A stretch of DNA of 64,000 nt. Origin: Limnothrix sp. FACHB-406 (GTDB lineage Bacteria; Cyanobacteriota; Cyanobacteriia; CACIAM-69d). The DNA lies in contig NZ_JACJSP010000003.1 of the NCBI RefSeq assembly GCF_014698235.1, forward strand, positions 248,001 to 312,000. Direction: 5' to 3'. Shown here in pieces: positions 1,905-58,012 of this stretch. A program made the translations under genes and the position numbers. The notes below the pieces were generated by a model. The model ran no database searches, was not told the DNA's origin, and saw only the letters and a list, made by a program, of their open reading frames with translations. Positions within the stretch are counted from its first letter, which is position 1, and each line of letters starts with the position of its first letter.

Positions 1905-4298
1905 ATGAATTTTTACGAACGATCACTACGAGCTACAGCGGTAGGCTGCGAGAAGCTAGCCGAGTCCTTGAAAAAAAGTAATTACACCAAAAGCTCAATT
2001 GGAGATTTTATTCAGTACCGTAAAAGCTCTAGCGAGAAAGGTGATAGAGAAATTAAACAGGTTGGTGTTAAACGCCAGACGATCTCCAAAATGTTTAATG
2101 GACATAAGGTTGATCGCAGAATTTTTCTTGAAGTATGTAAGCTATTGGGGCTGAATTGGCAGGAGATTACCGAGTTAGCAACTAGCGAGCCGCCTGCTCC
2201 GAGCGTGGCATCGGATGCGATCGATGTGGCGTGGGTGCGATCTCAGGTGGAGGCGGACTTGCGGCGGCGGTGCGGCACGATGCGGGTGCTGGATATGGAA
2301 CAGCCGATCGCCCTGGGCACGATTTACACCCAAGTGAATGTGCTGGAAAAGCTGACTGCAAATCAGCGCCTCAGCTCATCGGAATTGCTAGGAAATTTGG
2401 ATGAAATTGAGGAGTTTGATCGATTTTGTCTAGGTAAAGTGCGCCAAGAGAAGATCTCGGGCTTAGATGCTGTTACCCGACATAAAGCGCTGATGGTGTT
2501 GGGTTGGCCGGGTGCGGGTAAAACTACGTTTTTGAAGTATTTGACAATTGCCTGCCTGGATGGAAAATTCTTAGGCAATCTTGTGCCTATCTTTGTCACG
2601 CTCAAAGAGTGGACAGAATTTCCAGGCGAGCCAAATTTACTGAATTTTGTATCTCAGCAGTGGTCAGATTGTGGGATTACCGATTCTGAGTCTGTTTTGC
2701 ATCAATGCCTGAAATATGGTCAAGCTCTGGTCTTGTTGGATGGGCTAGATGAGGTGTTGGCAGCTCATACGGATCGGACGATTCGGGAAATGCGGAACTG
2801 GGTTGATCGTTTTCCCAAAAATCATATTCTTGCCACTTGTCGAATTGCTGCCAAGGAATATACCTTTGAGCGTTTTACTGAAGTAGAGGTGGCAGATTTT
2901 TCGGAAGAACAGATTCAAGAATTTGTTACTAATTGGTTTACTTGTCATCAGGACTTGCCTAAGATCGAACGTTTTCTAGAACGACTAGCAAATGAAGAGC
3001 CAATTTTGGAATTAGCCAGCAATCCGCTGCTGTTGACCTTACTTTGCTTAGTATTTGGTGAGAGTGGTGATTTTCCAGTCAACCGAGCCAAGCTTTATGA
3101 AGAAGGTGTGGATCTGCTGCTGAAGAAGTGGGATGGTAAGCGAAATATTCAGCGAGATCAGGTCTACAAGAATCTATCAATTGGTCGAAAGGAAGATTTG
3201 CTCTCGCAGTTGGCGCTGGCAACCTTTCAAGAGGGGTCTTATTTCTTTGATCAGCGAGTGGCAGAAGAGCAAATTATGGCTTATATCCATAATTTGCCGG
3301 ATGCTAAAGATGATCCAGAAGCCTTGCGGCTAGATAGCGAAGCTATTTTGCGCTCAATTGTGGCTCAACATGGCTTACTGACAGAACGAGCGCGCGGAGT
3401 TTATTCCTTTTCGCATTTGACTTTTCATGAATACTTTGCAGCCAGAGAAATTGTTGATCGTCAAAATTGGCAACTGCTAACTCAACATTTGCTTGATAAA
3501 GCTTGGCGGGAAGTCACCTTACTCGTAGCGGGCAGCGTTCGGCAAGGCGATCAATTAATTCTGACGCTGAAACAAGCTACGGACAATCTGTTGGCTGATG
3601 ATCCACAGTTGCAGGCTGTTTTAGCCTGGTCTACTGAAAAAGCAGCATCGGTAGAAGCGCCTTACAAACCACAAGCAGTAATTGCGTTCTACTCTACCCG
3701 TGCCCTCACTCGTGGTATTGCTTCTGATCTCGCTATAGTCAAGACTTTTGACCTTACTCTTTTTCGTGGGCTTAATTTCGCTATTGATTTTGCTTTCGAT
3801 CAGGCTTTTGCTCTCGCTCTCAATTATGCTCTCGCTCTCAGTCAGGATTCCTCTCCCGATTATGGTCTATCTTGCGAGCAAGTTTTTAATCTCAATCTTA
3901 ATCGCGCTCACGCTCACGCTCGCAATCTGAATAACCAAGACCTAGTAGCCCAACTAACTGCTCTAAAAGGCCAATTGCAGCCTATACGAAGCTCACCTTG
4001 GAAGCAGAGAAAAAAATGGTGGAAAAATGAAGGACAAGACTGGATCAGATCTTTACGAGCTGTGATGATTGAGCATCGCAATATTGGTCATGACTGGCAA
4101 TTTTCTGATCGACAAAAAGAGCTTTTGTGGAAGTATCATGATGCCAATTTGCGATTGGCAGAATGTTTGAATACTGATTGTTATTTGTCCCGAGAAGTGC
4201 GGCAAGACATCGAAGCCACAATGCTGCGCCCGATCGCCCAAATTGAGGCCTACTACGCCGCCAAAGGCAAACCCTATCCACCCGTGCCCAACCCCTAA
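1905..4298 (+). CDS. NACHT-family STAND NTPase with N-terminal HTH
   Basis: This 797-residue protein has an N-terminal helix-turn-helix at about residues 52-92 (VKRQTISKMFNGHKVDRRIF), a NACHT NTPase with Walker A GWPGAGKTT (200-208) and Walker B LVLLDGLDEV (275-284), and then a long helical region. Near the C terminus (about 745-785) is the segment LAECLNTDCYLSREVRQDIE, which recurs at the end of many cyanobacterial NACHT proteins. A low-complexity Ala/Leu/Phe stretch lies at about 615-650. NACHT proteins are signal-sensing switch ATPases, and several bacterial ones protect against phage. Base composition is clearly more AT-rich than the flanking genes, suggesting acquisition by transfer. The stop overlaps the convergent xisI end by 4 bases. 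No separate effector domain (TIR, nuclease) is visible, so the output is unknown. Confidence 0.85.
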   Translation: MNFYERSLRATAVGCEKLAESLKKSNYTKSSIGDFIQYRKSSSEKGDREIKQVGVKRQTISKMFNGHKVDRRIFLEVCKLLGLNWQEITELATSEPPAPSVASDAIDVAWVRSQVEADLRRRCGTMRVLDMEQPIALGTIYTQVNVLEKLTANQRLSSSELLGNLDEIEEFDRFCLGKVRQEKISGLDAVTRHKALMVLGWPGAGKTTFLKYLTIACLDGKFLGNLVPIFVTLKEWTEFPGEPNLLNFVSQQWSDCGITDSESVLHQCLKYGQALVLLDGLDEVLAAHTDRTIREMRNWVDRFPKNHILATCRIAAKEYTFERFTEVEVADFSEEQIQEFVTNWFTCHQDLPKIERFLERLANEEPILELASNPLLLTLLCLVFGESGDFPVNRAKLYEEGVDLLLKKWDGKRNIQRDQVYKNLSIGRKEDLLSQLALATFQEGSYFFDQRVAEEQIMAYIHNLPDAKDDPEALRLDSEAILRSIVAQHGLLTERARGVYSFSHLTFHEYFAAREIVDRQNWQLLTQHLLDKAWREVTLLVAGSVRQGDQLILTLKQATDNLLADDPQLQAVLAWSTEKAASVEAPYKPQAVIAFYSTRALTRGIASDLAIVKTFDLTLFRGLNFAIDFAFDQAFALALNYALALSQDSSPDYGLSCEQVFNLNLNRAHAHARNLNNQDLVAQLTALKGQLQPIRSSPWKQRKKWWKNEGQDWIRSLRAVMIEHRNIGHDWQFSDRQKELLWKYHDANLRLAECLNTDCYLSREVRQDIEATMLRPIAQIEAYYAAKGKPYPPVPNP

Positions 4299-4615
4299 CC
4301 CGCGATCGCAGACAGAGGCGATCGGGGACTCGCGGGCACAAAATCTTCCTCCCGCAACCCCAACTCAATCAGGTCATCGATCAACGTATCCGTGCCGTTC
4401 CACTCCACCCGAATTTGCTCCCCGATCGCCCGTAAATGCACCACCACACTGTGGATGCGATCGTGCCCCGACCACCCCACATTCATCAACAAATAATTCC
4501 CCGTTTCCCCATCACAAACCGCAATCAGCTCCACCCCCCGATCCGTTCGCGCCAACCCCACATACCGCTGAAAAACCGTCTGAATCGCCTGCCGAAAATC
4601 TACATCCCCAGCCAT
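4295..4615 (-). CDS. xisI: XisI-family protein
   Basis: This 106-residue protein has the XisI pattern: a helical N terminus (FRQAIQTVFQRYVGLARTD), a central beta region around NYLLMNVGWSGHDRIHSVVV, then IRVEWNGTDTLIDDLIELG and a closing REEDFV segment. XisI was named as a factor controlling excision of the Nostoc/Anabaena fdxN element, but most genomic copies, including this one, are not next to such an element. It starts inside the end of xisH (16-base overlap, 4600-4615), implying translational coupling. The final residues (ASPRSPLSAIAG) deviate from the usual GF..P...EFAVA-like ending. The pair behaves like a two-gene accessory module, and its biochemical role is unknown. Confidence 0.85.
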   Translation of the reverse strand: MAGDVDFRQAIQTVFQRYVGLARTDRGVELIAVCDGETGNYLLMNVGWSGHDRIHSVVVHLRAIGEQIRVEWNGTDTLIDDLIELGLREEDFVPASPRSPLSAIAG

Positions 4616-5016
4616 TGCAACACCTCCAGCTCAGGATCAAAAATTAGTAACTGAATTTGCTCTCGAATTAACCAACCCTGAATCACTTCTTTTGAAAAAT
4701 ATTCAGAATAAATTTCCTGAGGAACTGCCAAATATAAACGTCTCTCAGGCTCGTCACGCTCTAACAGATAACGATATAAACCATATTGCCCGATCGCTTT
4801 CTGCAATTCAGTAATTGTAGAAACTCCGCCAAGAACCTTAACTTCAACTGCAATCTTTTGAAGTCCCCGTTGAGCTGCCAAAAGCTTTTCAGCGCCCAGA
4901 TCAGCAAATACCAATAGCTCTTGATCGCCCAAGGGCAAGGGATCGTGGGTGATTGTCCAACCATCCTTCTCTAGGGCATTGCGAACAGTGTCATGGTACA
5001 GATCGCGGCGTGACAT
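4600..5016 (-). CDS. xisH: XisH-family protein (nuclease-fold)
   Basis: At 138 residues this has the normal length for XisH. Diagnostic segments are MSRRDLYHDTVRNALEKDGW, ITHDPLPL, FADLGAEKLLAAQRG and KIAVEVKVLGG, followed by LQKAIGQYGLYRYLL. The D..E.K pattern (DLGAEKLLAA...IAVEVKV) fits the PD-(D/E)XK-like endonuclease fold proposed for the family. Homologues are recorded as fdxN-element excision controlling factors and usually sit directly upstream of xisI, as here. Just 5' of its start (5022-5139) is a broken copy of the xisI 3' end, so the locus has undergone duplication and loss. Confidence 0.88.
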   Translation of the reverse strand: MSRRDLYHDTVRNALEKDGWTITHDPLPLGDQELLVFADLGAEKLLAAQRGLQKIAVEVKVLGGVSTITELQKAIGQYGLYRYLLERDEPERRLYLAVPQEIYSEYFSKEVIQGWLIREQIQLLIFDPELEVLQWLGM

Positions 5017-5021
5017 GGCAG

Positions 5022-5139
5022 TTAAAAATCTTCCTCCCGTAACCCCAACTCAATCAGGTCATCGATCAACGTATCCGTCCCGTTCCACTCCACCCGAATT
5101 TTGCGGGTGAAACAGACATAGGCATCCTCCGCAAATGCT
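5022..5139 (-). pseudogene. xisI remnant (C-terminal fragment)
   Basis: On the minus strand this stretch encodes RKIRVEWNGTDTLIDDLIEL followed by GLREEDF and a stop, the same peptide as in the intact xisI at 4295-4615. The DNA is about 95% identical between 5025-5102 and 4341-4413. Upstream the frame continues only as AEDAYVCFT and reaches a stop without a plausible start codon. It lies six bases ahead of xisH, so an earlier xisI-xisH arrangement or tandem duplication has been partly deleted. Confidence 0.8.
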
Positions 5140-5212
5140 GCTCACTCCCAGTCTAGCCGCTGCCATTTCCCGCCCGATACACTAGACAGCAACCACCCCA
5201 CTCGATCGCCCC

Positions 5213-5572
5213 ATGCCACCCTCTGGTCTCTCGGTGACAGAACTCTATCAACGCTTGCAAACCAGCCCCCAAGCGATCGCGCAGTTCTGTGAAAAATGGG
5301 CGATCGTAGAACTAGCGCTGTTTGGGTCTGTATTGCGCTCAGACTTTCGACCGACCGGAGCTGATCCAAGCGATATTGATTTGCTCTATCAAAGCGCCCC
5401 GGAAGCGCACTATGGTTTCAAGTTTTTTGATTTGCAATCAGAACTAGAAAAATTACTGCAACGTAAAGTTGACTTGATTAGTAAAAAGGGACTTGAAATG
5501 AGCCGCAATCCCCTACGTCGCCAAGAGATTCTCAACGCCGCTCAAGTAATTTATAAAGTCTCTAGAGTATAA
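5213..5572 (+). CDS. mntA: MntA-type nucleotidyltransferase antitoxin
   Basis: This 119-residue minimal nucleotidyltransferase has the family signature ALFGSVLRSDF (G38, S39), followed after a spacer by SDIDLLYQ with the metal-binding pair D54 and D56. In type VII toxin-antitoxin systems MntA inactivates HepT by adding AMP units to a tyrosine next to the HEPN active site. The downstream gene is exactly such a HepT, beginning two bases after this stop. The arrangement antitoxin-then-toxin, the lengths and the motifs agree with an intact, functional pair. Confidence 0.9.
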   Translation: MPPSGLSVTELYQRLQTSPQAIAQFCEKWAIVELALFGSVLRSDFRPTGADPSDIDLLYQSAPEAHYGFKFFDLQSELEKLLQRKVDLISKKGLEMSRNPLRRQEILNAAQVIYKVSRV

Positions 5573-5574
5573 AA

Positions 5575-5907
5575 ATGAGCAGAGATCAGCAAGCTATTCT
5601 CGATATCATTGATTCGATTGAACTCATTCAAAACTATACTCGATCGAACAATTGGAGCCAAGCCAGAACGATAGAATATGATGCAGTTATTCGGCGCTTG
5701 ACGATTATTGGTGAAGCGACCAAGCGCCTATCAATGGAGTTTCGCACTAACCATCCGGAAATACCGTGGAAAGCAATGGCTGGGCTACGGGATTTTGTCG
5801 TCCATGAGTATGATGTTATCAATTTGGAAATCATCCAAGATGTGGTGAATTTTGAACTTCCCCAACTGTTACCACTCCTCAACAGTTTGCTAGATGGAGA
5901 ATTCTAA
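5575..5907 (+). CDS. hepT: HepT-type HEPN ribonuclease toxin
   Basis: This 110-residue all-helical HEPN protein carries the RX4HXY motif as RDFVVHEY (R72, H77, Y79). In characterised HepT proteins Arg and His form the RNase centre, and the tyrosine is the residue modified by MntA. The upstream helix contains RRLTIIGEATKRLS, another typical HepT segment. The gene is translationally coupled to mntA. Its 3' end abuts a decayed gene fragment (5907-6030), so it sits at the edge of a rearranged area. The intact motif suggests an active toxin held in check by MntA. Confidence 0.9.
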   Translation: MSRDQQAILDIIDSIELIQNYTRSNNWSQARTIEYDAVIRRLTIIGEATKRLSMEFRTNHPEIPWKAMAGLRDFVVHEYDVINLEIIQDVVNFELPQLLPLLNSLLDGEF

Positions 5908-6030
5908 TTAACCTGAAACAAGACCTTGGGCTGCAACTGATTCAAACCGAAAGCCGCATCGAAATCACCACCGAAGAGCAAGGGGCGATCGTTCGCGGCC
6001 GGATCGATGTGTTGGTGCTGCCCCCACCCC
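5907..6030 (+). pseudogene. Fragment of a decayed cyanobacterial conserved gene
   Basis: The plus strand encodes INLKQDLGLQLIQTESRIEI and then TTEEQGAIVRGRIDVLVLP before running into the REP-like palindrome at 6034. The first part matches the fragment at 11344-11667 (NLKQDFGLQL), with about 28 of 31 bases identical. The second part resembles a downstream region of the same cyanobacterial family, often annotated as 'restriction endonuclease subunit R-like' hypothetical. An internal deletion therefore joined an N-terminal piece to a middle piece. There is no start codon of its own. Confidence 0.6.
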
Positions 6031-6033
6031 CCT

Positions 6034-6062
6034 ATCGTTCCTACGCTTCGCGTGGGAACGAT
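6034..6062. repeat. REP-like palindrome, single unit
   Basis: The sequence ATCGTTCCTACGCTTCGCGTGGGAACGAT is a near-perfect palindrome around a short loop. The same unit (CGTTCCCACGC...GCGTGGGAACG) forms both ends of the three larger composite repeats at 6666, 8758 and 10311. This single copy lies 9 bases beyond the 3' end of the REP-associated transposase gene. Confidence 0.85.
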
Positions 6063-6070
6063 GTCTGTTT

Positions 6071-6601
6071 CTACCAGGGATCGATCGCCACCAGTCCCGT
6101 TTTCCCCAGATAGTTTCGCGCACTGGAATAGCGCCAATCGGCGGGATCGTCAACATAGCCGCGCTTGACGGGATTGTTGTGGATGTAGTCCAGTTTTTCG
6201 CGCATCATGTCATCGCTCAAGATGAGTTCAGCGTGTGAACCTTCCTGCCAGAGTTGATACTCCCGATCGCCCTTATGGGCCGCTTTGGCGAAGGCAAGTT
6301 GTCCCAGCAAAGTTTGGGCGTTATGCCGTTGGAGTAAATCGATCGTTTGTCGAGCGGTGAAGGATTTGAACCGGGCGATACATCGATCGAGTTGGGGAGC
6401 CTGGGCGATGAGATGGAGGTGATTTTCGAGGATGACGTAGCCGTAGAGTTGAAAGCGATCGTTTTGGCGGAGGTATTGCCAACTATCGAAGACGATCGCC
6501 ACGGCTTCGGGTCGCGTGAAGATGGGGAGCCATTGGACGATCGTGCAAGTGAGGAAGTGGGGGCGATCGGGTTCAGTGATGACGTAGCGGCTACGACCCA
6601 T
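6071..6601 (-). CDS. REP-associated tyrosine transposase (RAYT, Y1/IS200-like fold)
   Basis: This 176-residue protein has the single-domain Y1 HUH architecture: HLH at residues 61-63 (ENHLHLIAQ) as the metal-binding HUH motif, and the family block DYIHNNPVKRGYV with the candidate catalytic tyrosine Y139, followed by WRYSSARNYLG. RAYTs are domesticated single-copy relatives of IS200/IS605 transposases that process REP/BIME palindromes as single-stranded DNA. REP-like palindromes flank the gene on both sides (6034-6062 and 6666-6784) and recur at 8.8 and 10.3 kb. This is the expected arrangement for a RAYT with its substrates. It appears full length and intact. Confidence 0.92.
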   Translation of the reverse strand: MGRSRYVITEPDRPHFLTCTIVQWLPIFTRPEAVAIVFDSWQYLRQNDRFQLYGYVILENHLHLIAQAPQLDRCIARFKSFTARQTIDLLQRHNAQTLLGQLAFAKAAHKGDREYQLWQEGSHAELILSDDMMREKLDYIHNNPVKRGYVDDPADWRYSSARNYLGKTGLVAIDPW

Positions 6602-6665
6602 AACCTATATGGTTTCTACTTTTCCCTACTTTACCGTCGATCGCCCCTCTCCATCCCCACCCCCC

Positions 6666-6784
6666 TATCGTTCCCACGCGGAGCGTGGGAATGCTGTGTG
6701 GACGCTCTGCGTCCCGGTGGTGCTGGTGTGCTACGCGACGCGGAGCGTCGGGGCTGCGTTCCCACGCTCTGCGTGGTAACGATA
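6666..6784. repeat. BIME-like composite palindromic repeat, copy A
   Basis: About 119 bp bounded by ATCGTTCCCACGC on the left and GCGTGGTAACGAT on the right. Inside are a second palindromic pair (GGACGCTCTGCGTCCC and GACGCGGAGCGTCGGGG). The whole unit is an imperfect palindrome and is closely similar to 8758-8877 and 10311-10448. It lies between the RAYT start and the terminator of the FGE-like gene. Confidence 0.85.
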
Positions 6785-6785
6785 G

Positions 6786-6815
6786 AAAAAAAATAAAAAA
6801 AGGCGCTAACGCGCC
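6786..6815 (-). terminator. Intrinsic terminator of the DUF4160-DUF2442-FGE operon
   Basis: Read on the minus strand, GGCGC-GTTA-GCGCC (6815-6802) is followed by a long T-rich run (6801-6786, T7ATTTTTTTT). It lies about 35 bases after the stop of the FGE-like gene. The hairpin plus uridine tract is a textbook Rho-independent terminator. Confidence 0.85.
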
Positions 6816-6847
6816 GGAAGAGGGAAAGAGGGAAAAAGAGTAGAGCG

Positions 6848-8203
6848 CTATATAGTTCTGGGGAGAAGAAGCCGAAAACCAATGTAGTAGTTCTGGCGAT
6901 CGCGCGTGTCGTTGCTCCGAAACGCCGAGCGGCAATGCTTCGGGTAGTCGCCCCACGAACCACCACGCAGCAGTTTGGCTGAATTTCCTGAATTTAGTAC
7001 AGCTTTCAAGTATTGCTCATGATTTCCAGAATAAGAATGATTGTCATTATCTATCCAGGCACGACCGTCTGTAGGTGCGCCGTTATAGCTTCCATGCCAG
7101 TCATCCATGCACCACTCCCAAACGTTCCCGTGCATGTGGTGCAAGCCCCAGGCATTGAGCGCTTTTAGGCTGTTTACGGGGACGGTTGTTTGCCGATCTT
7201 TTCCTTTCTGTCCGTTGCCGTAGGTATAGTTGCCGTTGTAGTTGGCGACTTCTGTGGAAAGGGTTGCGCCAAAGTGAAAGGGTGTTTGTGTTCCGGCGCG
7301 GCAGGCATATTCCCATTCGGCTTCGCTGGGCAGTCGGTAGGCTTTGCCGGTGGCTTGGCTGAGGCGAAGACAAAATTCAATGCACTGCTTCCAACTCACT
7401 CGCTCAACGGGGTGATCAGGATTTTTGAAGTTTGATGGGTCGGGATCAAGTTGAATGCTAATTTGATCGAGGTTTGCCACGGCTCGCCACTGGGCTTGGG
7501 TCACGGTGGTGCGGCTCAGGAAGTATTCGGGTAGCGTGACTTGGTGAATGGGGCTTTCAGCGCTGCCTAGTTCCTGTTCGTTGTCCGGTGATCCCATCAT
7601 GAAGTCTCCGGCGGGGATGCGGACAAATTCGAGGTTCAAGCCGCAGGCGGTTTCGATGAAGCCTTGGTTGCTGCCCGATTCTTCTTTCGCGATGCTGCCG
7701 TATGAGTCTAGGGTGATGACCGTGTAGGTGTAGGTTTGGCTGTACCAGCGGTCTCGTTCTGCTTGCTCTTCTTGCTCTTTGGCGGCTTGGGCTGCCCGAC
7801 GATCGGCTTCTTCCTGTGCCTGCCGCTCGGCTTCTCGACGCTTGGCGGCTGCTTCCTGGTCGTTGAGCCGCTTCAGGAGAGCAAAAAATTCCCGATCTAA
7901 GGCGATCGCGCTGGCTTCATCACCCAAACGCCGTAACAAAACCTGCAATCGTTCAATCAGCTTGCCATCTGCACCAACCAGCACTTGACCGAAGGCGGCG
8001 ATCGCCTCGGACATTTCGGCAGTTTCCGACGGTGGATTTCCCCCGCGCCGTTGGGTGATCTCGCGGATCGATCGCTTCAGGTCTGACCTTGTGCGATCGG
8101 GGTCGAGATGGGCGAACTGTTCGGCGATCGTGAGGATGCCATCGAGCAAATAATCCACCTTGGTGGCGGGTTTGGATGGATCAAGAATGGGTAGCTTATT
8201 CAT
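6848..8203 (-). CDS. FGE-sulfatase-domain protein, candidate DGR target
   Basis: This 451-residue protein has a helical N terminus (1-105), a charged coiled coil (about 110-155, with AAAKRREAERQAQEEADRRA), and a formylglycine-generating-enzyme-like, C-type-lectin-fold domain (about 185-450). Family markers are FMMGSPDNE, YRLPSEAEWEYACRAG, MHGNVWEWCMDDW and LLRGGSW. True FGE enzymes need two cysteines after RGGSF; here the first position is Asp (SWGDYPKHC) and only the second Cys remains, so catalysis is unlikely. The last 40 residues (RGGSW...NYYIGFRL) have the pattern of variable regions of diversity-generating retroelements, whose cyanobacterial targets often carry this fold. It follows the DUF2442 gene by 15 bases, forming an operon with it and DUF4160. 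No reverse transcriptase lies in the window. A ligand-binding role is inferred. Confidence 0.85.
   Translation of the reverse strand: MNKLPILDPSKPATKVDYLLDGILTIAEQFAHLDPDRTRSDLKRSIREITQRRGGNPPSETAEMSEAIAAFGQVLVGADGKLIERLQVLLRRLGDEASAIALDREFFALLKRLNDQEAAAKRREAERQAQEEADRRAAQAAKEQEEQAERDRWYSQTYTYTVITLDSYGSIAKEESGSNQGFIETACGLNLEFVRIPAGDFMMGSPDNEQELGSAESPIHQVTLPEYFLSRTTVTQAQWRAVANLDQISIQLDPDPSNFKNPDHPVERVSWKQCIEFCLRLSQATGKAYRLPSEAEWEYACRAGTQTPFHFGATLSTEVANYNGNYTYGNGQKGKDRQTTVPVNSLKALNAWGLHHMHGNVWEWCMDDWHGSYNGAPTDGRAWIDNDNHSYSGNHEQYLKAVLNSGNSAKLLRGGSWGDYPKHCRSAFRSNDTRDRQNYYIGFRLLLPRTI
6862..6972 (-). other. Candidate DGR variable region (VR)
   Basis: This covers the codons for LLRGGSW through IGFR of the FGE-like protein. 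Between constant blocks, variable-looking positions carry codons one or two changes from AAY (GGC, GAC, TAC; CAT; TTT; AGC, AAC, GAC; TAC, TAC), as expected if adenines of a template repeat are mutagenised. The constant frame RGGSW-x3-P-x2-CRSA-x-R...IGFR matches DGR target proteins. No template repeat was found within this window, so the assignment is provisional. Confidence 0.45.
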
Positions 8204-8218
8204 GGTTTTTTGTGGGTA

Positions 8219-8515
8219 TTATCGTTGATCGAGCCAGGCTTGAAGCGATCGTTGACTTTCGCCAGAAGGTTGTCCCAACAAGAGGTTTTTGACGCTGATA
8301 TCTTCGTCGAGATCTGGCCAATAAATGCCGGTTTGGTTCGGAGCAATTTCCCAGCGATCGCGCTCGGCGGGTGAACCGTGGAAGAGGCGGGGATACCAGG
8401 CGATCGGCACAGAAATAATTCGACCATCGGTCAGGGTAACGGTCAGTAATTCATCGGTGAGCGTCAAGCCAAGAATTGGCGGGACTTGGATTATTTCAGT
8501 CGCGAAAGAACTCAT
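8219..8515 (-). CDS. DUF2442 protein
   Basis: This 98-residue protein has the DUF2442 layout: a beta strand pair (LTDELLTVTLTDGRIISVP), then the signature IAWYPRL, then ERDRWEIAPNQTGIYWPDLD and ISVKNLL. DUF2442 genes are typically found next to DUF4160 genes in bacterial genomes, and the pair is suspected to be a toxin-antitoxin-like module. Here DUF4160 is immediately upstream and the two reading frames overlap by 20 bases, indicating translational coupling. The C-terminal tail SGESQRSLQAWLDQR extends slightly beyond the core. Molecular function is not established. Confidence 0.88.
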   Translation of the reverse strand: MSSFATEIIQVPPILGLTLTDELLTVTLTDGRIISVPIAWYPRLFHGSPAERDRWEIAPNQTGIYWPDLDEDISVKNLLLGQPSGESQRSLQAWLDQR

Positions 8516-8732
8516 CCCATTTCTCCATCAAGTCAGGTTGATTGGTTTCGATTAAACGCTGAATACGGTTCAACTCTTTGGCACTGAAGCCTTGGTTGGA
8601 CTGCAATCGGACAGGAACAAGCCAAAATTTTGCCTCATTGTTGCTGGTGCGAACGTGAATATGGGGCGGTTCGTCGTGATCGCCTGCGTAGCAGAAAAAA
8701 CGATAGCCATCAATCCGCAAGAGCGTTGGCAT
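8496..8732 (-). CDS. DUF4160 protein
   Basis: Starting at the ATG at 8732, this 78-residue protein begins MPTLLRIDGYRFFCYAGDHD and continues EPPHIHV, the hallmark of DUF4160 (short proteins with a conserved H-x-H after an acidic/proline segment). An in-frame start at 8768 would run into the palindromic repeat and is less likely. It overlaps the DUF2442 gene by 20 bases. Together they head the operon that ends with the FGE-like gene. A toxin-antitoxin role for the DUF4160/DUF2442 pair is suspected from genomic context in the literature and is not shown by sequence. Confidence 0.85.
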   Translation of the reverse strand: MPTLLRIDGYRFFCYAGDHDEPPHIHVRTSNNEAKFWLVPVRLQSNQGFSAKELNRIQRLIETNQPDLMEKWDEFFRD

Positions 8733-8757
8733 AGTCTTTAGTATGTTGCTGGTCGTT

Positions 8758-8877
8758 ATCGTTCCCACGCTCGGCGTGGGAATGCCGTATGGACGCTCCG
8801 CGTCCCGGTGACAGGAGTAAGAGGGTTACGGGATGCAGAGCGTCGGGGCTGTGTTACCACGCAGAGCGTGGGAACGA
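8758..8877. repeat. BIME-like composite palindromic repeat, copy B
   Basis: It is bounded by ATCGTTCCCACGCTCGGCG on the left and ACGCAGAGCGTGGGAACGAT on the right, with internal GGACGCTCCGCGTCCCGGTG and ATGCAGAGCGTCGGGGC. It closely matches 10311-10448 and 6666-6784. It separates the DUF4160 start from the 3' end of the next minus-strand gene. A partial extra GCGTGGGAAC follows at 8885-8894. Confidence 0.88.
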
Positions 8878-8906
8878 TGGGACGGCGTGGGAACAATGGG
8901 AGGTGT

Positions 8907-10283
8907 TTACAGGGTGTCGAATTGGGCGAGGTTTTCCCAGAAGAGCGATTGCAGTTGTTGAACTAATGACTTTTTGAGCTCGTCATCCTTCACTGAGTCC
9001 AAAATCTCTGGCAGGAGTTGAGGAAGCTGGGGCGGGCGATCATAAAACGAGAGGTAATACAGATCTACTTGCATCATCAGGATGAGATTGCCGATCGTGG
9101 CGAGGAAATCGGCTAATTCTTCAATGTATTTTTCATCATTGACGATGTAGCCATAATCGTGAGTTTCATCAAACATATTCAGCTCACGATCTTCTTCCTC
9201 CCGTTCCAGTGTTTTCAAATTGGCTTCATCAACTGGCCGGCGTTGGGCAATTTCCTCTAAGCTACGGCCGCGATCGATCAACTTCAAACGATCATCCCGC
9301 CATTGCGCCGCATAGCGCTTCGCCGTGGGGTACAGCACATCCTTCCAAGAAATGGAAAACACCTGTTCGTAACTGCTGCCCTCACTGCGGTTGCAGCGAC
9401 CAATGTACAAATCAATATTGTTGCCGTTGAGCTTGCACTCCAGAACGATGACGGGCGCAAAGGGCAGGGCGGTGTGGAGATTGTCGATCGCCGATTTGCC
9501 GCTGAATTGCTTGCTACGCCAACCGTTACCCTGGTAGTTCACCGGATGGGACGAACCCGCACCACACCGATCGCCAAACACCCGGCTGATCGTGTCGGCA
9601 ATCCGATTACTGATGTTGACAAAACCGCGATCGACATTGGCGCGAGGCGACGGTTCGTGTTCCAACGCCAACGGCGAGATCGCCACCAACGGGGGAACCA
9701 CATTTTGGGTTGCATAGTACCGATCATAGGTGTCCCGCAAACTACGCACCGTCACCGTCAGCGGATACACCGCACTCACCTCGCGATCGTCCGCCAGTTC
9801 ACGCTGTCGTATGAAGTGCAGTTCCGCTAACATCAGTTCCTTGGCTTTTTGGAATTCCGCCAGGGCGATGTCGAACTTCATCCGCTTTTCTTGGATGACC
9901 AGATCATGACTCAGGCGCTGAGCAAGGCGGTCATCTTCCCGATCCTGGCGTTCCCGTTCAATCCGGGCGTTAAATTCTATCTGGCGACGCTGTTGCGCTG
10001 CTTGGAAGGCCCGATCAAGATCAGCCCGCGCATCCGCCGCCGCGATCGCCAGACTCTGGAGTCGTTCCTGATGAGCGTGATTTTGCTCTTGCAATCTCAC
10101 GTTCGTCATCAACGTTGCCATGGCGTTTTCGCGCTGCATGTCCGCCGCTTCACGCATTCCCGCTCGCTGTTGATAGCTCGGCGGTGTGAGCCAACTGCTC
10201 GCCCAGCGTCGTGCCTTGTCAAACCAGTTGGTTGATTTTTGCATCTCGCTGCGGGACGAGTCGATCGAAACAAGACTTCCCAT
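8907..10283 (-). CDS. Coiled-coil protein of unknown function
   Basis: The family was not recognised. The 458 residues divide into an N-terminal 45 with two Trp-containing amphipathic stretches (NWFDKARRWASSWL), a long predicted coiled coil at about 46-165 rich in Gln/Arg/Ala/Glu (including RRQIEFNARIERERQDRED), and a mixed alpha/beta region at about 170-340 with a hydrophobic strand APVIVLECKLNGNNIDLYIG. A helical acidic C terminus (about 345-458) follows. No signal peptide or transmembrane segment is seen. The gene lies in a minus-strand array in which every spacer carries one BIME-like repeat. A structural or scaffold role in an accessory system is possible but is inference. Confidence 0.7.
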   Translation of the reverse strand: MGSLVSIDSSRSEMQKSTNWFDKARRWASSWLTPPSYQQRAGMREAADMQRENAMATLMTNVRLQEQNHAHQERLQSLAIAAADARADLDRAFQAAQQRRQIEFNARIERERQDREDDRLAQRLSHDLVIQEKRMKFDIALAEFQKAKELMLAELHFIRQRELADDREVSAVYPLTVTVRSLRDTYDRYYATQNVVPPLVAISPLALEHEPSPRANVDRGFVNISNRIADTISRVFGDRCGAGSSHPVNYQGNGWRSKQFSGKSAIDNLHTALPFAPVIVLECKLNGNNIDLYIGRCNRSEGSSYEQVFSISWKDVLYPTAKRYAAQWRDDRLKLIDRGRSLEEIAQRRPVDEANLKTLEREEEDRELNMFDETHDYGYIVNDEKYIEELADFLATIGNLILMMQVDLYYLSFYDRPPQLPQLLPEILDSVKDDELKKSLVQQLQSLFWENLAQFDTL

Positions 10284-10310
10284 TGGTTTTCGGTTAATTG
10301 AAGGTTGTTG

Positions 10311-10448
10311 ATCGTTCCCACGCTCTGCGTGGGAATGCCGTCTGGACGCTCCGCGTCCCGGTGACAGTGTTTGCAGGGCTAATCAACGGTTACGGGATAC
10401 GCGACGCAGAGCGTCGGGGATGCGTTACCACGCAGAGCGTGGGAACGA
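10311..10448. repeat. BIME-like composite palindromic repeat, copy C
   Basis: About 138 bp from ATCGTTCCCACGCTCTGCGT to the matching inverted end GCAGAGCGTGGGAACGAT, with the same internal palindromes as copies A and B. Its centre holds about 20 more bases than copy B. It lies in the spacer between two minus-strand genes of unknown function, 28 bases upstream of one and 8 bases downstream of the other. Confidence 0.88.
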
Positions 10449-10455
10449 TGAGAAA

Positions 10456-11241
10456 TTAAGCACGGGACAGGTTGAAAATTAATGTCGCGGCTGCCCAGCG
10501 AGCCGAAAGTCCACTCGCAAACAAAGTCGCATCATTGCCGGTTCCCGCATAGGCACAGCCTCCGGGTGTGACATAACCCAAAACATGACCGTTGGCATTC
10601 ACCACCTCTAGATTGCTTTTAAGTGTACCCAGAAGATTTCCCGAACAGTCGTAATACTTATGTCCACTCACCGTGCCAACTTTGCCTCCCCCATAACGAT
10701 GCCAGTAAACATCGCCATCGTCGTAGATCTTGACACTATTATCGTCGCCGGGATGAATTGGGCTAGAACAGGCGGAAGAGTGGGTTTCTAGGCTGTGGGA
10801 AGAAGTGGAATTTGCGAGGAATTCGAGCGATGAAGTAAGGTGTGAATCATGGGTTGATTCGAGCGTGTGGCTGTCATGACCGTGAATCGACGAATCACGG
10901 AAAGGAGAAACGCCACCATGATCGAAGCTTGGATAATCGAGGCTTGGATTCCACGTTGCCGATTCTTGTCCCCAGGCGCGATCATCGTTCAGATTCAGAA
11001 CGTCTGTATGACCCAAGCCATGATTAGCTGTAGTCGGCGGATGCTCTCCGAACCCCAAGGAGGACTCATGAGCTAGTAGATCTGAGGTTAAAAGAGTTGG
11101 GTGTGGATCAGTGATCGGGGAATTGAGATCCAACCCGCTTTGAGTTTGATCATGCTGATGAGTTGGCTCTATAGCAGCATAATCGGCATGACCGTGGGAG
11201 TGGGCGATATGAGCCAAAGCATCATCAAAGGGTGGCTGCAT
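10456..11241 (-). CDS. His/Asp/Ser-rich protein with a short beta-repeat tail
   Basis: The family was not recognised. The start is taken at the ATG at 11241 (MQPPFDDALAHIAHSHGHAD); a GTG at 11253 is the alternative. Residues 1-165 are low-complexity and rich in His, Asp, Ser and Thr (HGHD, THQHDQTQ, SSHSLETHSS), without hydrophobic segments, so probably disordered and possibly metal-binding. The last 90 residues are ordered and contain short strand-turn repeats with Gly/Asn (IYDDGDVYW, GTVSGHKYYDCSGNLLG, VVNANGHVLGYV), ending in a hydrophobic helix (ARWAAATLIFNLS). The 3' end is 8 bases from BIME-like copy C. The ordered tail recalls small beta-flower-like domains; this is a guess. Confidence 0.6.
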   Translation of the reverse strand: MQPPFDDALAHIAHSHGHADYAAIEPTHQHDQTQSGLDLNSPITDPHPTLLTSDLLAHESSLGFGEHPPTTANHGLGHTDVLNLNDDRAWGQESATWNPSLDYPSFDHGGVSPFRDSSIHGHDSHTLESTHDSHLTSSLEFLANSTSSHSLETHSSACSSPIHPGDDNSVKIYDDGDVYWHRYGGGKVGTVSGHKYYDCSGNLLGTLKSNLEVVNANGHVLGYVTPGGCAYAGTGNDATLFASGLSARWAAATLIFNLSRA

Positions 11242-11343
11242 AGCAACGATCACTCAAGCTTTTCTCTCAAGGTAGCTCAAGCTTCCGCGAATATCACACA
11301 GTCGATGATACAAACCAAACCTGATCGATTAACAGCAAGCATC

Positions 11344-11667
11344 ATGATCCAGATTATTGCTGCCCAAGATGTCACCCTTCGGAACCTGAAACAAGACTTT
11401 GGGTTGCAACTGACCGATGATGCCGACTTTTTTCCCGAGTGGCGATCGCCCCAAGCGAGCCTCAGCGCCCTCGAACAACAACTGCTCGATCGCGTCAAAC
11501 AGAACTTTCAAACCCTGCTCGAAGACCCACCCCTGCTCGAAGACGGCGTGAAAATGGTTGTGCTTGCGCCCCTGCGAGGTTTGGGGTCGGGCTATTGCGG
11601 GCGCTGGACGATCACTTCGCGGATCCGTTGCTTACGATCGGGGTCGATCGCCACCAATCGCACATAA
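11344..11667 (+). pseudogene. Truncated copy of a cyanobacterial conserved gene
   Basis: From the ATG at 11344 the frame encodes MIQIIAAQDVTLRNLKQDFG, then LQLTDDADFFPEW, LLDRVKQNFQTLLED and PPLLEDGVKMVVLAPL, the N-terminal 80 residues of a family common in cyanobacteria and often annotated as restriction-endonuclease-related hypothetical proteins. After VVLAPL (about 11575) similarity stops, and the frame continues only as antisense of the Rubisco activase 3' end to a stop at 11667. The body (normally about 200 residues) is missing. A second fragment of the same family lies at 5907-6030. Confidence 0.7.
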
Positions 11668-55141: not shown

Positions 55142-57082
55142 ATGGAACCGTTGGCAATGGGCGCAGCGGAGATCGGGGTGTTGATGTTGAAAAAATCGGC
55201 AGAAACCACCAGCGAACTGTTAACCAAGGAAGTTCTAGAGCCGATCTTGCCCCAAATCCGCACGGCGGTGGGTGCTTTGGCAGCTCCGGTGCGCGATCGG
55301 GTGGCGGCCCTGGGCGATCGGGTGGCGGCGCGGCTCCCGGCGGCCAATCTGGACAATCCGTTCGATGATCTGACGCTGTTGGAGGCGATCGTGGTGGAAG
55401 AAACGGCCGATCCGGCGGTGGCGGCCACTGTGAACGAGGTGGTGAGCAGCTTACCGGCGATCAACATCAAAATCGATCAGCGAAAGGCTGGCATGATGTT
55501 CAACGATCCAGCCGAGCAGGGGGTAGCAACTGCCTTTGAGTTAAGCTGGCAAGCCCTGAGCCAGGAAGCACAACGGCTGGCGGTGTTGTTGGGTTGTTTT
55601 GGGCCGGCTCCGGTGTTGTGGGATTGGGTGCAGGGCTGTTTGCCCAACGACGATGAGGAAGCGCTGGAGGCAGCGCGGGCGGAATTGGTGCGGCTGAGTT
55701 TGTTGGAACAGTTGGGCGATGGGCAATATGGCCTGCATCCGCTAATTCGGGAGTTTTTTGCAGCCCAGCGATCAGACTGGCCTGAAGGCGAGGCCCTGCA
55801 ACAGGCGTTTTTGGGGCAGATGGTGAGCGTGGCGCAAACGGTTCCCTATGGGGTGACGCTGGCGGACTTGGAGCGCACCCGCCCCGCCTGGCCGCATTTG
55901 GCAACAGCAGCGGCGGCCAGTGGCGAGATTAATGATGACGATTGTGGTTGGCCCTTCACAGCCCTGGCGCGGCTGGCTGAGGGGCAGGGTCTCTGGGCCG
56001 AAGCCGAACAGCACTGGAGCGACCGCTTGAGCACTACCGAACGCCGCTTTGGCCCTGACCATCCCGACACCGCCACCAGCCTCAACAACTTGGCAGGACT
56101 CTACTATTCCCAGGGACGGTACGAGGCAGCAGAACCCCTCTATCGGCGATCTCTGGGCATTAGTGAGCGAGTGCTGGGAGCCGACCATCCCGAAACCGCC
56201 CAAAGCCTTAACAACCTGGCAGGACTCTACTATTTCCAGGGACGGTACGAGGCGGCGGAACCCCTCTTGCGGCGATCTCTGGAAATCCGTGAGCGAGTGC
56301 TGGGAGCCGACCATCCCGACACCGCAATCAGCCTCAACAACTTGGCAAATCTCTACAAATCCCAGGGACGTTACGAGGCAGCGGAACCCCTCCACTGGCG
56401 ATCTCTGGAAATCTGTGAGCGAGTGCTGGGAGCCGACCATCCCGACACCTCCGCCAGCCTCAACAACTTGGCAAACCTCTACAAATCCCAGGGACGTTAC
56501 GAAGCAGCGGAACCCCTCTACTGGCGATCTCTGGAAATCTGTGAGCGAGTGCTGGGAGCCGACCATCCCGACACCGCCACCAGCCTCAACAACTTGGCAA
56601 ACCTCTACCGATCCCAGGGACGTTACGAGGCAGCGGAACCCCTCTACCAGCGATCTCTGGAAATCTGGGAGCGAGTGCTGGGAGCCGACCATCCCAACAC
56701 TGCCGCCAGCCTCAACAACTTGGCGGTACTCTACCAAGCCCAGGGACAGTACGAGGCAGCGGAACCCCTCTACCGGCGATCGCTGGAAATCCGTGAGCAA
56801 GTGCTGGGAGCCGACCATCCCGACACCGCCATTAGCCAGGGCAATTTGGGGCAACTATATATGGCTCTAGAACGCTACTCAGAAGCAGAGAGCTTATTGC
56901 TTCTGGCCTTCAAGACTTTTCAGGACGCTCTCAATCCTGATCATCCCTACGTCAAAGAAACCGTGCGCCGCTTGAATGTTTTGGTGCAAACCGTCCTCCA
57001 AGCCGATCGCACCGCCGACCTCTCCGACCACCCCCTCACCCAATCCCTCCGACAACAACTCACCACCCCACCAAACCCGTAG
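55142..57082 (+). CDS. Kinesin-light-chain-type TPR protein lacking its NB-ARC domain
   Basis: The protein is 646 residues from the ATG at 55142 (a GTG sits directly before it). The N-terminal 45 residues (LAMGAAEIGVLMLKKSAETT) and the segment at about 130-210 (AFELSWQALSQEAQRLAVLL, GLHPLIREFFAAQ) match the effector-associated start and the winged-helix that follows the NTPase in cyanobacterial NB-ARC-TPR proteins. No Walker A or B motif lies between them, so the NTPase appears deleted. Seven 42-residue TPRs follow (about 300-600), with the consensus SLNNLA.LY.SQGRYEAAEP and LGADHPDTA. The near-identical repeats at DNA level indicate recent expansion. It is likely a protein-protein interaction scaffold, or a broken relic of a STAND switch. 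Confidence 0.85.
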   Translation: MEPLAMGAAEIGVLMLKKSAETTSELLTKEVLEPILPQIRTAVGALAAPVRDRVAALGDRVAARLPAANLDNPFDDLTLLEAIVVEETADPAVAATVNEVVSSLPAINIKIDQRKAGMMFNDPAEQGVATAFELSWQALSQEAQRLAVLLGCFGPAPVLWDWVQGCLPNDDEEALEAARAELVRLSLLEQLGDGQYGLHPLIREFFAAQRSDWPEGEALQQAFLGQMVSVAQTVPYGVTLADLERTRPAWPHLATAAAASGEINDDDCGWPFTALARLAEGQGLWAEAEQHWSDRLSTTERRFGPDHPDTATSLNNLAGLYYSQGRYEAAEPLYRRSLGISERVLGADHPETAQSLNNLAGLYYFQGRYEAAEPLLRRSLEIRERVLGADHPDTAISLNNLANLYKSQGRYEAAEPLHWRSLEICERVLGADHPDTSASLNNLANLYKSQGRYEAAEPLYWRSLEICERVLGADHPDTATSLNNLANLYRSQGRYEAAEPLYQRSLEIWERVLGADHPNTAASLNNLAVLYQAQGQYEAAEPLYRRSLEIREQVLGADHPDTAISQGNLGQLYMALERYSEAESLLLLAFKTFQDALNPDHPYVKETVRRLNVLVQTVLQADRTADLSDHPLTQSLRQQLTTPPNP

Positions 57083-57182
57083 GGGCGCATCGCCATGCGC
57101 CCTCCGATACGCGAGATTTCCGCCAACCAATTCGTATCAAGCGATCAATCCTGGCGGAGGGCGTACAGCGGTACGCCCCTAC
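57079..57182. repeat. GTAGGGGCG palindromic repeat, copy 1
   Basis: This 104-bp unit starts GTAGGGGCGCATCGCCATGC and ends GCGGTACGCCCCTAC, so the termini are inverted repeats. Inner blocks GCGCCCTCC and GGAGGGCG also pair. It overlaps the TPR stop codon. Three related units lie at 57666-58012. Confidence 0.85.
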
Positions 57183-57243
57183 CCGACCTCGCCGCCGCCC
57201 GCCCGATCGCCCCCATAAATCCAGACACCCCAGAGATCGTTTT

Positions 57244-57582
57244 ATGGACACCTCAGCGTACCTAAACATTCTCGAAGCCACCGTACAGGACTACCACGAC
57301 TGGGCAAACCGAGCCGCCAGCGACACTGATGAAAACTGCCTGATTATCGATCGCGATCGGGGCTACTGCCTGTGGCTATGCATCGGTTGGAAAAACCGCA
57401 AACGCATCGAAAAAACCATGATTTTCGCTCGCCTCAAAAACGGCAAAATCTGGATCGAAACCGACGAAACCGCCGACGGCATCGCCACCGACCTGATGCG
57501 AGCTGGCATTCCCAACACCGATATTGTCCTTGGTTTCCTTGCCCCCGAAGAGCGTCCCCTCTCCGAATTCGCGGTGGCATGA
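57244..57582 (+). CDS. Orphan XisI-family protein
   Basis: This 112-residue protein has the full XisI pattern: N-terminal LNILEATVQDYHDW, the central RGYCLWLCIGWKNRKRI, then FARLKNGKIWIETDETADGI and the classical ending IPNTDIVLGFLAPEERPLSE-FAVA. It is more typical at its C terminus than the xisI at 4.3 kb, and the two are clearly not recent duplicates. No xisH is adjacent. It is flanked on both sides by a duplicated stretch of about 175 bases consisting of the TPR gene's 3' end plus a palindromic repeat, so it lies within a rearranged or inserted segment. Function as an orphan is unknown. Confidence 0.85.
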   Translation: MDTSAYLNILEATVQDYHDWANRAASDTDENCLIIDRDRGYCLWLCIGWKNRKRIEKTMIFARLKNGKIWIETDETADGIATDLMRAGIPNTDIVLGFLAPEERPLSEFAVA

Positions 57583-57596
57583 AGCAAGCAATCTCG

Positions 57597-57668
57597 CGCC
57601 GCCGAACTCTCCGACCACCCCCTCACCCAATCCCTCCTGCAACAACTCACCACCCAACCCAACCCGTA
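57597..57668 (+). pseudogene. Duplicated 3' end of the TPR gene
   Basis: This stretch repeats the last 24 codons of the TPR gene (57010-57082): LSDHPLTQSLLQQLTTQPNP and a stop, compared with LSDHPLTQSLRQQLTTPPNP in the intact gene. The palindromic repeat follows in both places. Reading frame and stop are preserved but there is no body, so it is a relic of a second TPR gene or of a segmental duplication. Confidence 0.8.
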
Positions 57669-58012
57669 GGGGCGCATCGCCATGCGCCCTCCGATACGCG
57701 AGATCTCCGCAAACCAATTCGGTTCCAGCGATCAATCCTGGCGGAGGGCGTACAGCGGTCCGCCCCTACCCATGCGGGAAAACCGATTCTTGTGGGACCA
57801 CATCGCCATGCGCCCTCCGATACGCGAGATCTCCGCAAACCAATTCGGTTCCAGCGATCAATCCTGGCGGAGGGCGTACAGCGGTACGCCCCTACCCATG
57901 CGGGAAAATCGATTCTTGTGGGGCCACATCGCCATGCGCCCTCTGATATGCGAGATCTCCGCAAACCAATTCATTTCAAGCGATCGCCCCTAGTAGAGGA
58001 CGTACAGCGGCC
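57666..58012. repeat. Tandem array of GTAGGGGCG palindromic repeat, 126-bp period
   Basis: Three units start at 57666, 57792 and 57918, exactly 126 bases apart. Each has a palindromic unit of about 104 bp (GCATCGCCATGCGCCCTCCG to GGCGGAGGGCGTACAGCGG) and a 22-base spacer (CATGCGGGAAAA.CGATTCTTG). The third unit is degenerate after 57960. Later units have GTGGG(A/G)CCA in place of GTAGGGGCG at the left end. The array fills most of the 482-base gap between xisI and the Uma2 gene. It is not a CRISPR: units are too long and too few. Confidence 0.88.

Follow-up and report, generated by a model that had tools for sequence, protein, structure and literature searches.

The variable proteins of cyanobacterial diversity-generating retroelements (DGRs), as well as their paralogs, carry a C-terminal C-type-lectin/FGE module, and their genes have the variable region (VR) at the 3' end (Vallota-Eastman et al., 2020; PMC7517822). 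For filamentous cyanobacteria, ligand-binding receptors of this type have been proposed to act as antigen sensors or signalling inputs (PMC10907252; PMC7517822). Efficient homing in phage BPP-1 requires a hairpin located 3' of the VR (PMC3240598). The DhiT/DhiA toxin-antitoxin system of Dickeya pairs a DUF4160 with a DUF2442 protein (PMC8198452).

Features of these systems occur side by side in Limnothrix sp. FACHB-406. The stretch of 64,000 nucleotides analysed here (the window) contains a gene at 6848-8203 (minus strand; the FGE gene) encoding a protein of 451 amino acids, which its Pfam match, predicted model and Foldseek search assign to the FGE/C-type-lectin fold and which we classify as a candidate orphan DGR-type variable protein. 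The first-pass annotation of this DNA had taken it for a receptor that is diversified at present. We consider it very likely that the gene is, instead, a horizontally acquired and now frozen DGR target.

Results

The FGE protein and its family

The proposed FGE fold was confirmed by a match of the Pfam profile PF03781 (FGE-sulfatase) to residues 192-446 of the 6848-8203 reading frame (E 8e-48), and by the predicted structure (mean pLDDT 85), which recovered PvdO, the Treponema denticola protein TvpA (2y3c, at rank 3) and FGEs in a Foldseek search of the PDB. The C-terminal C-type-lectin/FGE domain, a trait of cyanobacterial DGR variable proteins, is present. The first-pass annotation had proposed that Asp replaces the first catalytic Cys of true FGEs. 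The alignments obtained with true FGEs did not cover the motif of the two copper-binding active-site cysteines and thus gave no confirmation; among 25 relatives, C424 is invariant and position 419 lies outside the conserved columns. The N-terminal residues 1-155 (7739-8203, minus strand) have no Pfam family and are predicted to form a helical region with a long coiled-coil helix. Helices are predicted at residues 15-29, 38-51, 60-74, 80-92 and 98-153, with pLDDT near 60 over residues 1-100; the last is a single long helix and agrees with the coiled coil noted earlier. A tblastn search with residues 1-165 returned no relatives among the compared loci, and N-terminal matches from residues 59-84 (Limnothrix and others) were set aside as coiled-coil similarity.

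In a comparison set of one genome per species, relatives of the FGE protein are found in 41 of 59 related genomes and reverse transcriptases (RTs), detected by the profile PF00078, in 28 of the 59. A subset of these RTs adjoins the best FGE relatives; their profile match starts near position 8, and the GxxTSQ and YSDD motifs are present in Limnothrix sp. CACIAM 69d (G001), which belongs to the same genus. Scanning for repeats with mismatches at the adenines of one copy gave template repeat (TR)/VR pairs at 11 loci, plus L111 in another run, with 10-18 A mismatches compared to 0-3 others. In CACIAM 69d, target, RT and TR are consecutive and the repeats differ by 14 A mismatches and one other, the latter being the IMH difference (TR AGCACTCTT, VR AGGACTCTT). 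Of 79 sampled family members, 40 reside in genomes with a DGR RT and 38 in genomes without a detected one. The hallmarks of a DGR target claimed in the first-pass annotation hold up in that relatives adjoin DGR-type RTs with true TR/VR pairs and the VR and tail of the FGE gene fit this pattern; the comparison supports membership of the FGE protein in the cyanobacterial DGR-target family.

The RNA located 3' of cyanobacterial DGR TRs has a conserved structure of its own (L101:5571-5692 and 11 similar loci; alignment A2, covariance model R1), in which the IMH* CTCTTC is base-paired to a GAAGAG ~45 nt further on, and two covarying hairpins follow. In the alignment of 12 loci, 98.2% of the cells are paired and 11 pairs show two-sided changes, with control values of 5.3 on shuffling and 3-5 on sliding. 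Rfam 15 holds no matching family and our own model was built instead. At two loci the VR of an FGE gene runs directly into template-type RNA, namely at L193 (~2846-2969; G010:C1:3876345-3876468) and downstream of the L105 gene ending at 5553 (minus strand). G010 is a single-contig genome without an RT match and template-type RNA therefore outlives the RT. In Spirulina subsalsa FACHB-351 (L192; G059:C86), a template RNA at 8640-8763, with a TR reading RGGSWNNNPINCRSANRNHNQRDNINNNLGFR, lies 6 kb from a kinase-FGE target (1124-2935); no DGR RT is found in 13 kb and the genome holds only an RT of non-DGR type. This Spirulina template (NNNPINC) was rejected as the source of the VR of L071 (PKYC; see below) on the basis of a codon mismatch.

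Codon-position footprint in the variable region

The DGR-like C-terminal block singled out in the first-pass annotation, RGGSWGDYPKHCRSAFRSNDTRDRQNYYIGFR, corresponds to residues 413-444 (RGGSW...IGFR; 6872-6967, minus strand) and gives gap-free alignments with 10 template repeats. At 11 of 11 positions that are typically AAY in the DGR templates of relatives, the FGE gene has an NNY codon (GGC, GAC, TAC, CAT, TTT, AGC, AAC, GAC, AAC, TAC and TAC). As proof of DGR origin this count is nearly uninformative, because most of the residues concerned (D, Y, H, N and F) are encoded by NNY codons only. A genuine DGR footprint is shown by stronger tests, namely the codon comparison with the closest relative, its calibration on other gene pairs and the tail behind the stop codon, all described below. 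Compared to 10 TRs of equal length, all of which belong to relatives and none of which is the template of the FGE gene itself, the VR mismatches at 39-52% of template adenines versus 10-21% of the other first and second positions.

A test independent of any template compares the FGE gene with L071, the kinase-FGE gene of Spirulina subsalsa that is its closest relative (57-60% at the amino acid level). Between the two genes, the 13 variable codons differ 10, 6 and 1 times at codon positions 1, 2 and 3, respectively, which is the raised variation that the first-pass annotation had asked for, whereas the 19 fixed VR codons differ 1, 1 and 9 times and the remaining 248 codons of the gene 79, 41 and 148 times. 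Where both genes have an NNY codon, 11 of 12 variable codons retain the third base, versus 55 of 104 codons elsewhere (p 0.012); this footprint draws on 13 codons compared with a single close relative, and the choice of variable codons was made partly in view of the L071 alignment. Calibration on other gene pairs used a fixed list of 11 template positions, on which the FGE gene and L071 score 8, 6 and 1. Pairs with a DGR-linked member gave 8, 6, 0 (G001-G002), 7, 8, 1 (G026) and 8, 8, 1 (G001-G004). The inversion was absent from the RT-less pairs G027-G043 (1, 6, 9) and G003-G003 (9, 7, 8), and the footprint was weaker in two remote pairs of DGR genomes (G001-G004 remote). The close RT-less orthologs G058-G007, which come from fragmentary assemblies, show no change in the VR while the body of the gene has diverged, which is the pattern that a frozen receptor should give. 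Read from its codons, the VR of the FGE gene is marked by past diversification.

A DGR-type tail downstream of the stop codon

At the 3' end of the VR lies a partly degenerate IMH-like motif (CCCAGAACT; 6854-6862, minus strand), which was compared with the VR (CCCAGGACTCTT) and TR (CCCAGCACTCTT) of relatives; the site reads CCCAGAACTATA in the FGE gene. Immediately 3' of the stop codon lies a pyrimidine tract (6816-6847, minus strand; 94% C+T), which is near-identical in L071, and next to it a GC-rich hairpin, GGCGC-GTTA-GCGCC, followed by a T-rich run (6802-6815, minus strand). The hairpin is analogous to that of DGR targets, but the loop is GRNA in BPP-1 (PMC3240598) and different in the FGE gene and its relatives. 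It also reads as an intrinsic terminator and, together with the T-rich sequence, could act as one. The tails of the FGE gene and L071 align almost without mismatch, the coding bodies being 64% identical at the DNA level.

Pyrimidine tract and hairpin together were found in 33 of 79 FGE-family genes: 22 of the 40 genes in genomes with a DGR RT, 10 of the 38 in genomes without, and the FGE gene itself. Such tails are absent from all 93 other open reading frames of the window and from 157 neighbouring ones (161 minus four hits that were FGE genes sampled twice), and occur at 33 of 20,000 random window positions.

Search for a retroelement in the genome

The assembly comprises 4.50 Mb in 38 contigs and is rated 100% complete. 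PF00078 gave no match in this genome at E<=1, and neither did the DGR RT protein of CACIAM 69d at E<=10. The VR used as a DNA query found only itself and no template repeat, nor did a repeat search inside the 64 kb window list one. The template-RNA model R1, which is positive in 13 of 59 relatives (CACIAM 69d at 2.4e-25), gave no matches in the genome under strict or lax filters. Hence, the assembly lacks both components of a complete DGR, the RT and an adenine-bearing template repeat, and the genome-wide check proposed in the first-pass annotation, a template repeat beside a DGR RT, came out negative on both counts. With RT, template and template RNA absent, nothing in the assembly can diversify the FGE gene, and the earlier view of a receptor under present diversification is not sustained. 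One gene for a PF05635 four-helix-bundle protein, on another contig, was not taken as avd; it adjoins a methyltransferase-like gene and no DGR parts are found there.

A variable island

A block of ~7 kb (4290-11415) is missing at the syntenic site of CACIAM 69d, whose sequence jumps from window position 4285 to ~11416 and whose right flank is 92% identical. The block contains XisH, MntA/HepT, a RAYT, the FGE operon and two unassigned open reading frames. In a tree calculated without the VR, the FGE gene groups with L071 (100/99), apart from other Limnothrix FGE genes, and DGR-linked members are scattered among unlinked ones (28 changes over four labels). Horizontal gain of the FGE gene within a variable island would be the simpler reading of these data; loss of the block in CACIAM 69d is possible.

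Other features of the region include a nuclease-like gene, which is intact in CACIAM 69d (L185:15145-15756) and present as pieces at both island ends in the window (5907-6021 and 11342-11575), with a short duplicated stretch, NLKQD-GLQL; in the syntenic comparison the pieces map to 5940-6020 and 11413-11575. A REP-associated tyrosine transposase (6071-6601) scores over the cut-off of NF047646, and a copy with 56% identity adjoins the DGR locus L124. The repeat search also showed that REP/BIME-like palindromic repeats flank the DUF4160-DUF2442-FGE operon, one 3' of it (6655-6787) and one 5' of it (8746-8882); with the related copy at 10299-10453 and a further one at 6022-6067, they are the likely palindromes of this transposase. 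A gene at 1905-4298, also present in CACIAM 69d, encodes a NACHT protein with an NCH2 domain and weak matches to the antiphage protein EruA and to PADLOC PDC-S60. Further away, a tandem array of 126-nt repeats occupies 55931-58010, with central copies ~84-87% alike.

The DUF4160/DUF2442 gene pair

Upstream of the FGE gene and on the same strand, a DUF2442 protein (8219-8515, minus strand; PF10387, E 6.7e-19) constitutes a candidate DhiA-type antitoxin, and its gene ends 15 nt 5' of the FGE start. It overlaps by 20 nt with the gene for a DUF4160 protein (8496-8732, minus strand; PF13711, E 3.9e-20), a candidate DhiT-type toxin, so that the pair shows the overlapping arrangement of DUF4160 and DUF2442 genes used to define DhiTA. 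The DUF4160 protein scores 27.6 bits with NF048015 (toxin_DhiT), under the cut-off of 100. No such pair was found near other FGE genes among the compared loci, and PADLOC recognised neither the FGE protein nor the two DUF proteins. Of the operon and conflict module proposed in the first-pass annotation, same-strand adjacency with DUF4160/DUF2442 is retained, while the absence of the pair beside other FGE genes argues against the module. The FGE protein and the DhiT/DhiA-type pair might be functionally linked, given their gene order.

Discussion

We infer for the FGE gene past diversification in another host, transfer, present freezing and a receptor role. The 3' end of the gene would formerly have been rewritten by mutagenic retrohoming, with A-to-N changes at the AAY codons of a template repeat, and retrohoming would have entered through the IMH, helped by the downstream hairpin. 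Synteny and tree suggest that the gene reached a Limnothrix-like genome in a variable island. Given that this genome lacks a DGR RT and template, the ligand-binding face would now be fixed and subject to ordinary mutation only. By analogy to described DGR targets, the protein is probably a ligand-binding receptor and a putative antigen sensor or signalling input. Its N-terminal helical and coiled-coil part probably oligomerises or transmits binding, and output via the co-directional DhiT/DhiA-type pair is possible.

Other readings have to be weighed against a frozen target. The FGE gene could still be active if an RT and a template were provided in trans from DNA that the assembly lacks, such as a plasmid. 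The third bases of the VR look fresh (1 of 13 changed relative to L071), the hairpin tail is intact, remote DGR targets are common in cyanobacteria, whose DGRs also reside on plasmids (PMC7517822), and, as the assembly is a draft of 38 contigs, an unassembled plasmid could carry both components. Still, we regard this as highly unlikely for a genome rated complete with neither RT nor template RNA and for a gene with a degenerate IMH-like motif. It is scarcely credible that the protein is an ordinary member of the fold never touched by a DGR, with the look of its VR reflecting the fold's surface-loop pattern. While RGGSW...RSA.R...GFR is a frame common to the whole fold, being present in PvdO and PorK as well, and 38 of the 79 sampled family members come from genomes without a detected DGR RT, the inverted codon-position footprint is matched by DGR-linked pairs and absent from two RT-less pairs, and the DGR-type tail is not only present but specific to the family.

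Compatible with the orphan-target reading, as its downstream half, would be a conflict module that has the DhiT/DhiA-type pair as its effector and uses the frozen lectin-like domain to sense phage or another antigen. The overlapping, same-strand gene order, the nearby MntA/HepT, XisH and NACHT genes, and the proposal of DGR targets as antigen sensors (PMC10907252) speak for such a module; no pair beside other compared FGE genes and no PADLOC match for either partner speak against it, and we consider it unlikely. We also entertain, as a quite unlikely extension, that DGR targets are portable: receptor genes would move among cyanobacteria as part of defence islands, unaccompanied by RT or template, keep IMH, pyrimidine tract and hairpin, and be diversified again by an RT and matching template arriving later, for example on a plasmid.

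Returning to the frozen orphan target, the locus shows that the target of a DGR is recognisable even where the retroelement is missing, by two template-free tests based on the inverted codon-position footprint and on the tail downstream of the stop codon. With 38 family members lacking a detected DGR RT in their genomes and 40 having one, frozen targets may therefore be as common as live ones, and would constitute a natural experiment on selection after diversification ends. For the strain as assembled, the reading of the locus as an active adaptive receptor is removed.

How does the FGE gene compare to known systems? With the cyanobacterial variable proteins (PMC7517822) it shares, in addition to the C-terminal module, variable N-terminal partner domains and scattered remote paralogs; it differs in that its genome lacks RT and template, and in having an N-terminal helical coiled coil rather than a kinase, caspase or TIR domain. 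The Clade-5 DGR targets, putative antigen sensors, are likewise FGE/CLec proteins encoded near NACHT and conflict genes (Dore et al., 2024; PMC10907252), but no MoxR/VMAP/vWA ternary system is found beside the FGE gene, which appears to be a frozen target. TvpA is a DGR variable protein of FGE-like fold, yet only ~23% identical. The neighbouring genes resemble Dickeya DhiT/DhiA in domain pair and overlap (PMC8198452), whereas the NF048015 match is below the cut-off and their toxin-antitoxin role is putative. A literature search on orphan or remnant DGR regions found none; PMC7517822 nonetheless describes one paralog, all3226 of Nostoc sp. PCC 7120, a variable protein that retains traces of TR-VR homology and has no RT in its vicinity. 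Nostoc keeps DGRs elsewhere in its genome, in contrast to the genome studied here, which lacks them. Targets retained at a distance from an RT are thus already known (all3226; PMC7517822) and the novelty of our finding is modest, but the FGE gene adds a well-documented case.
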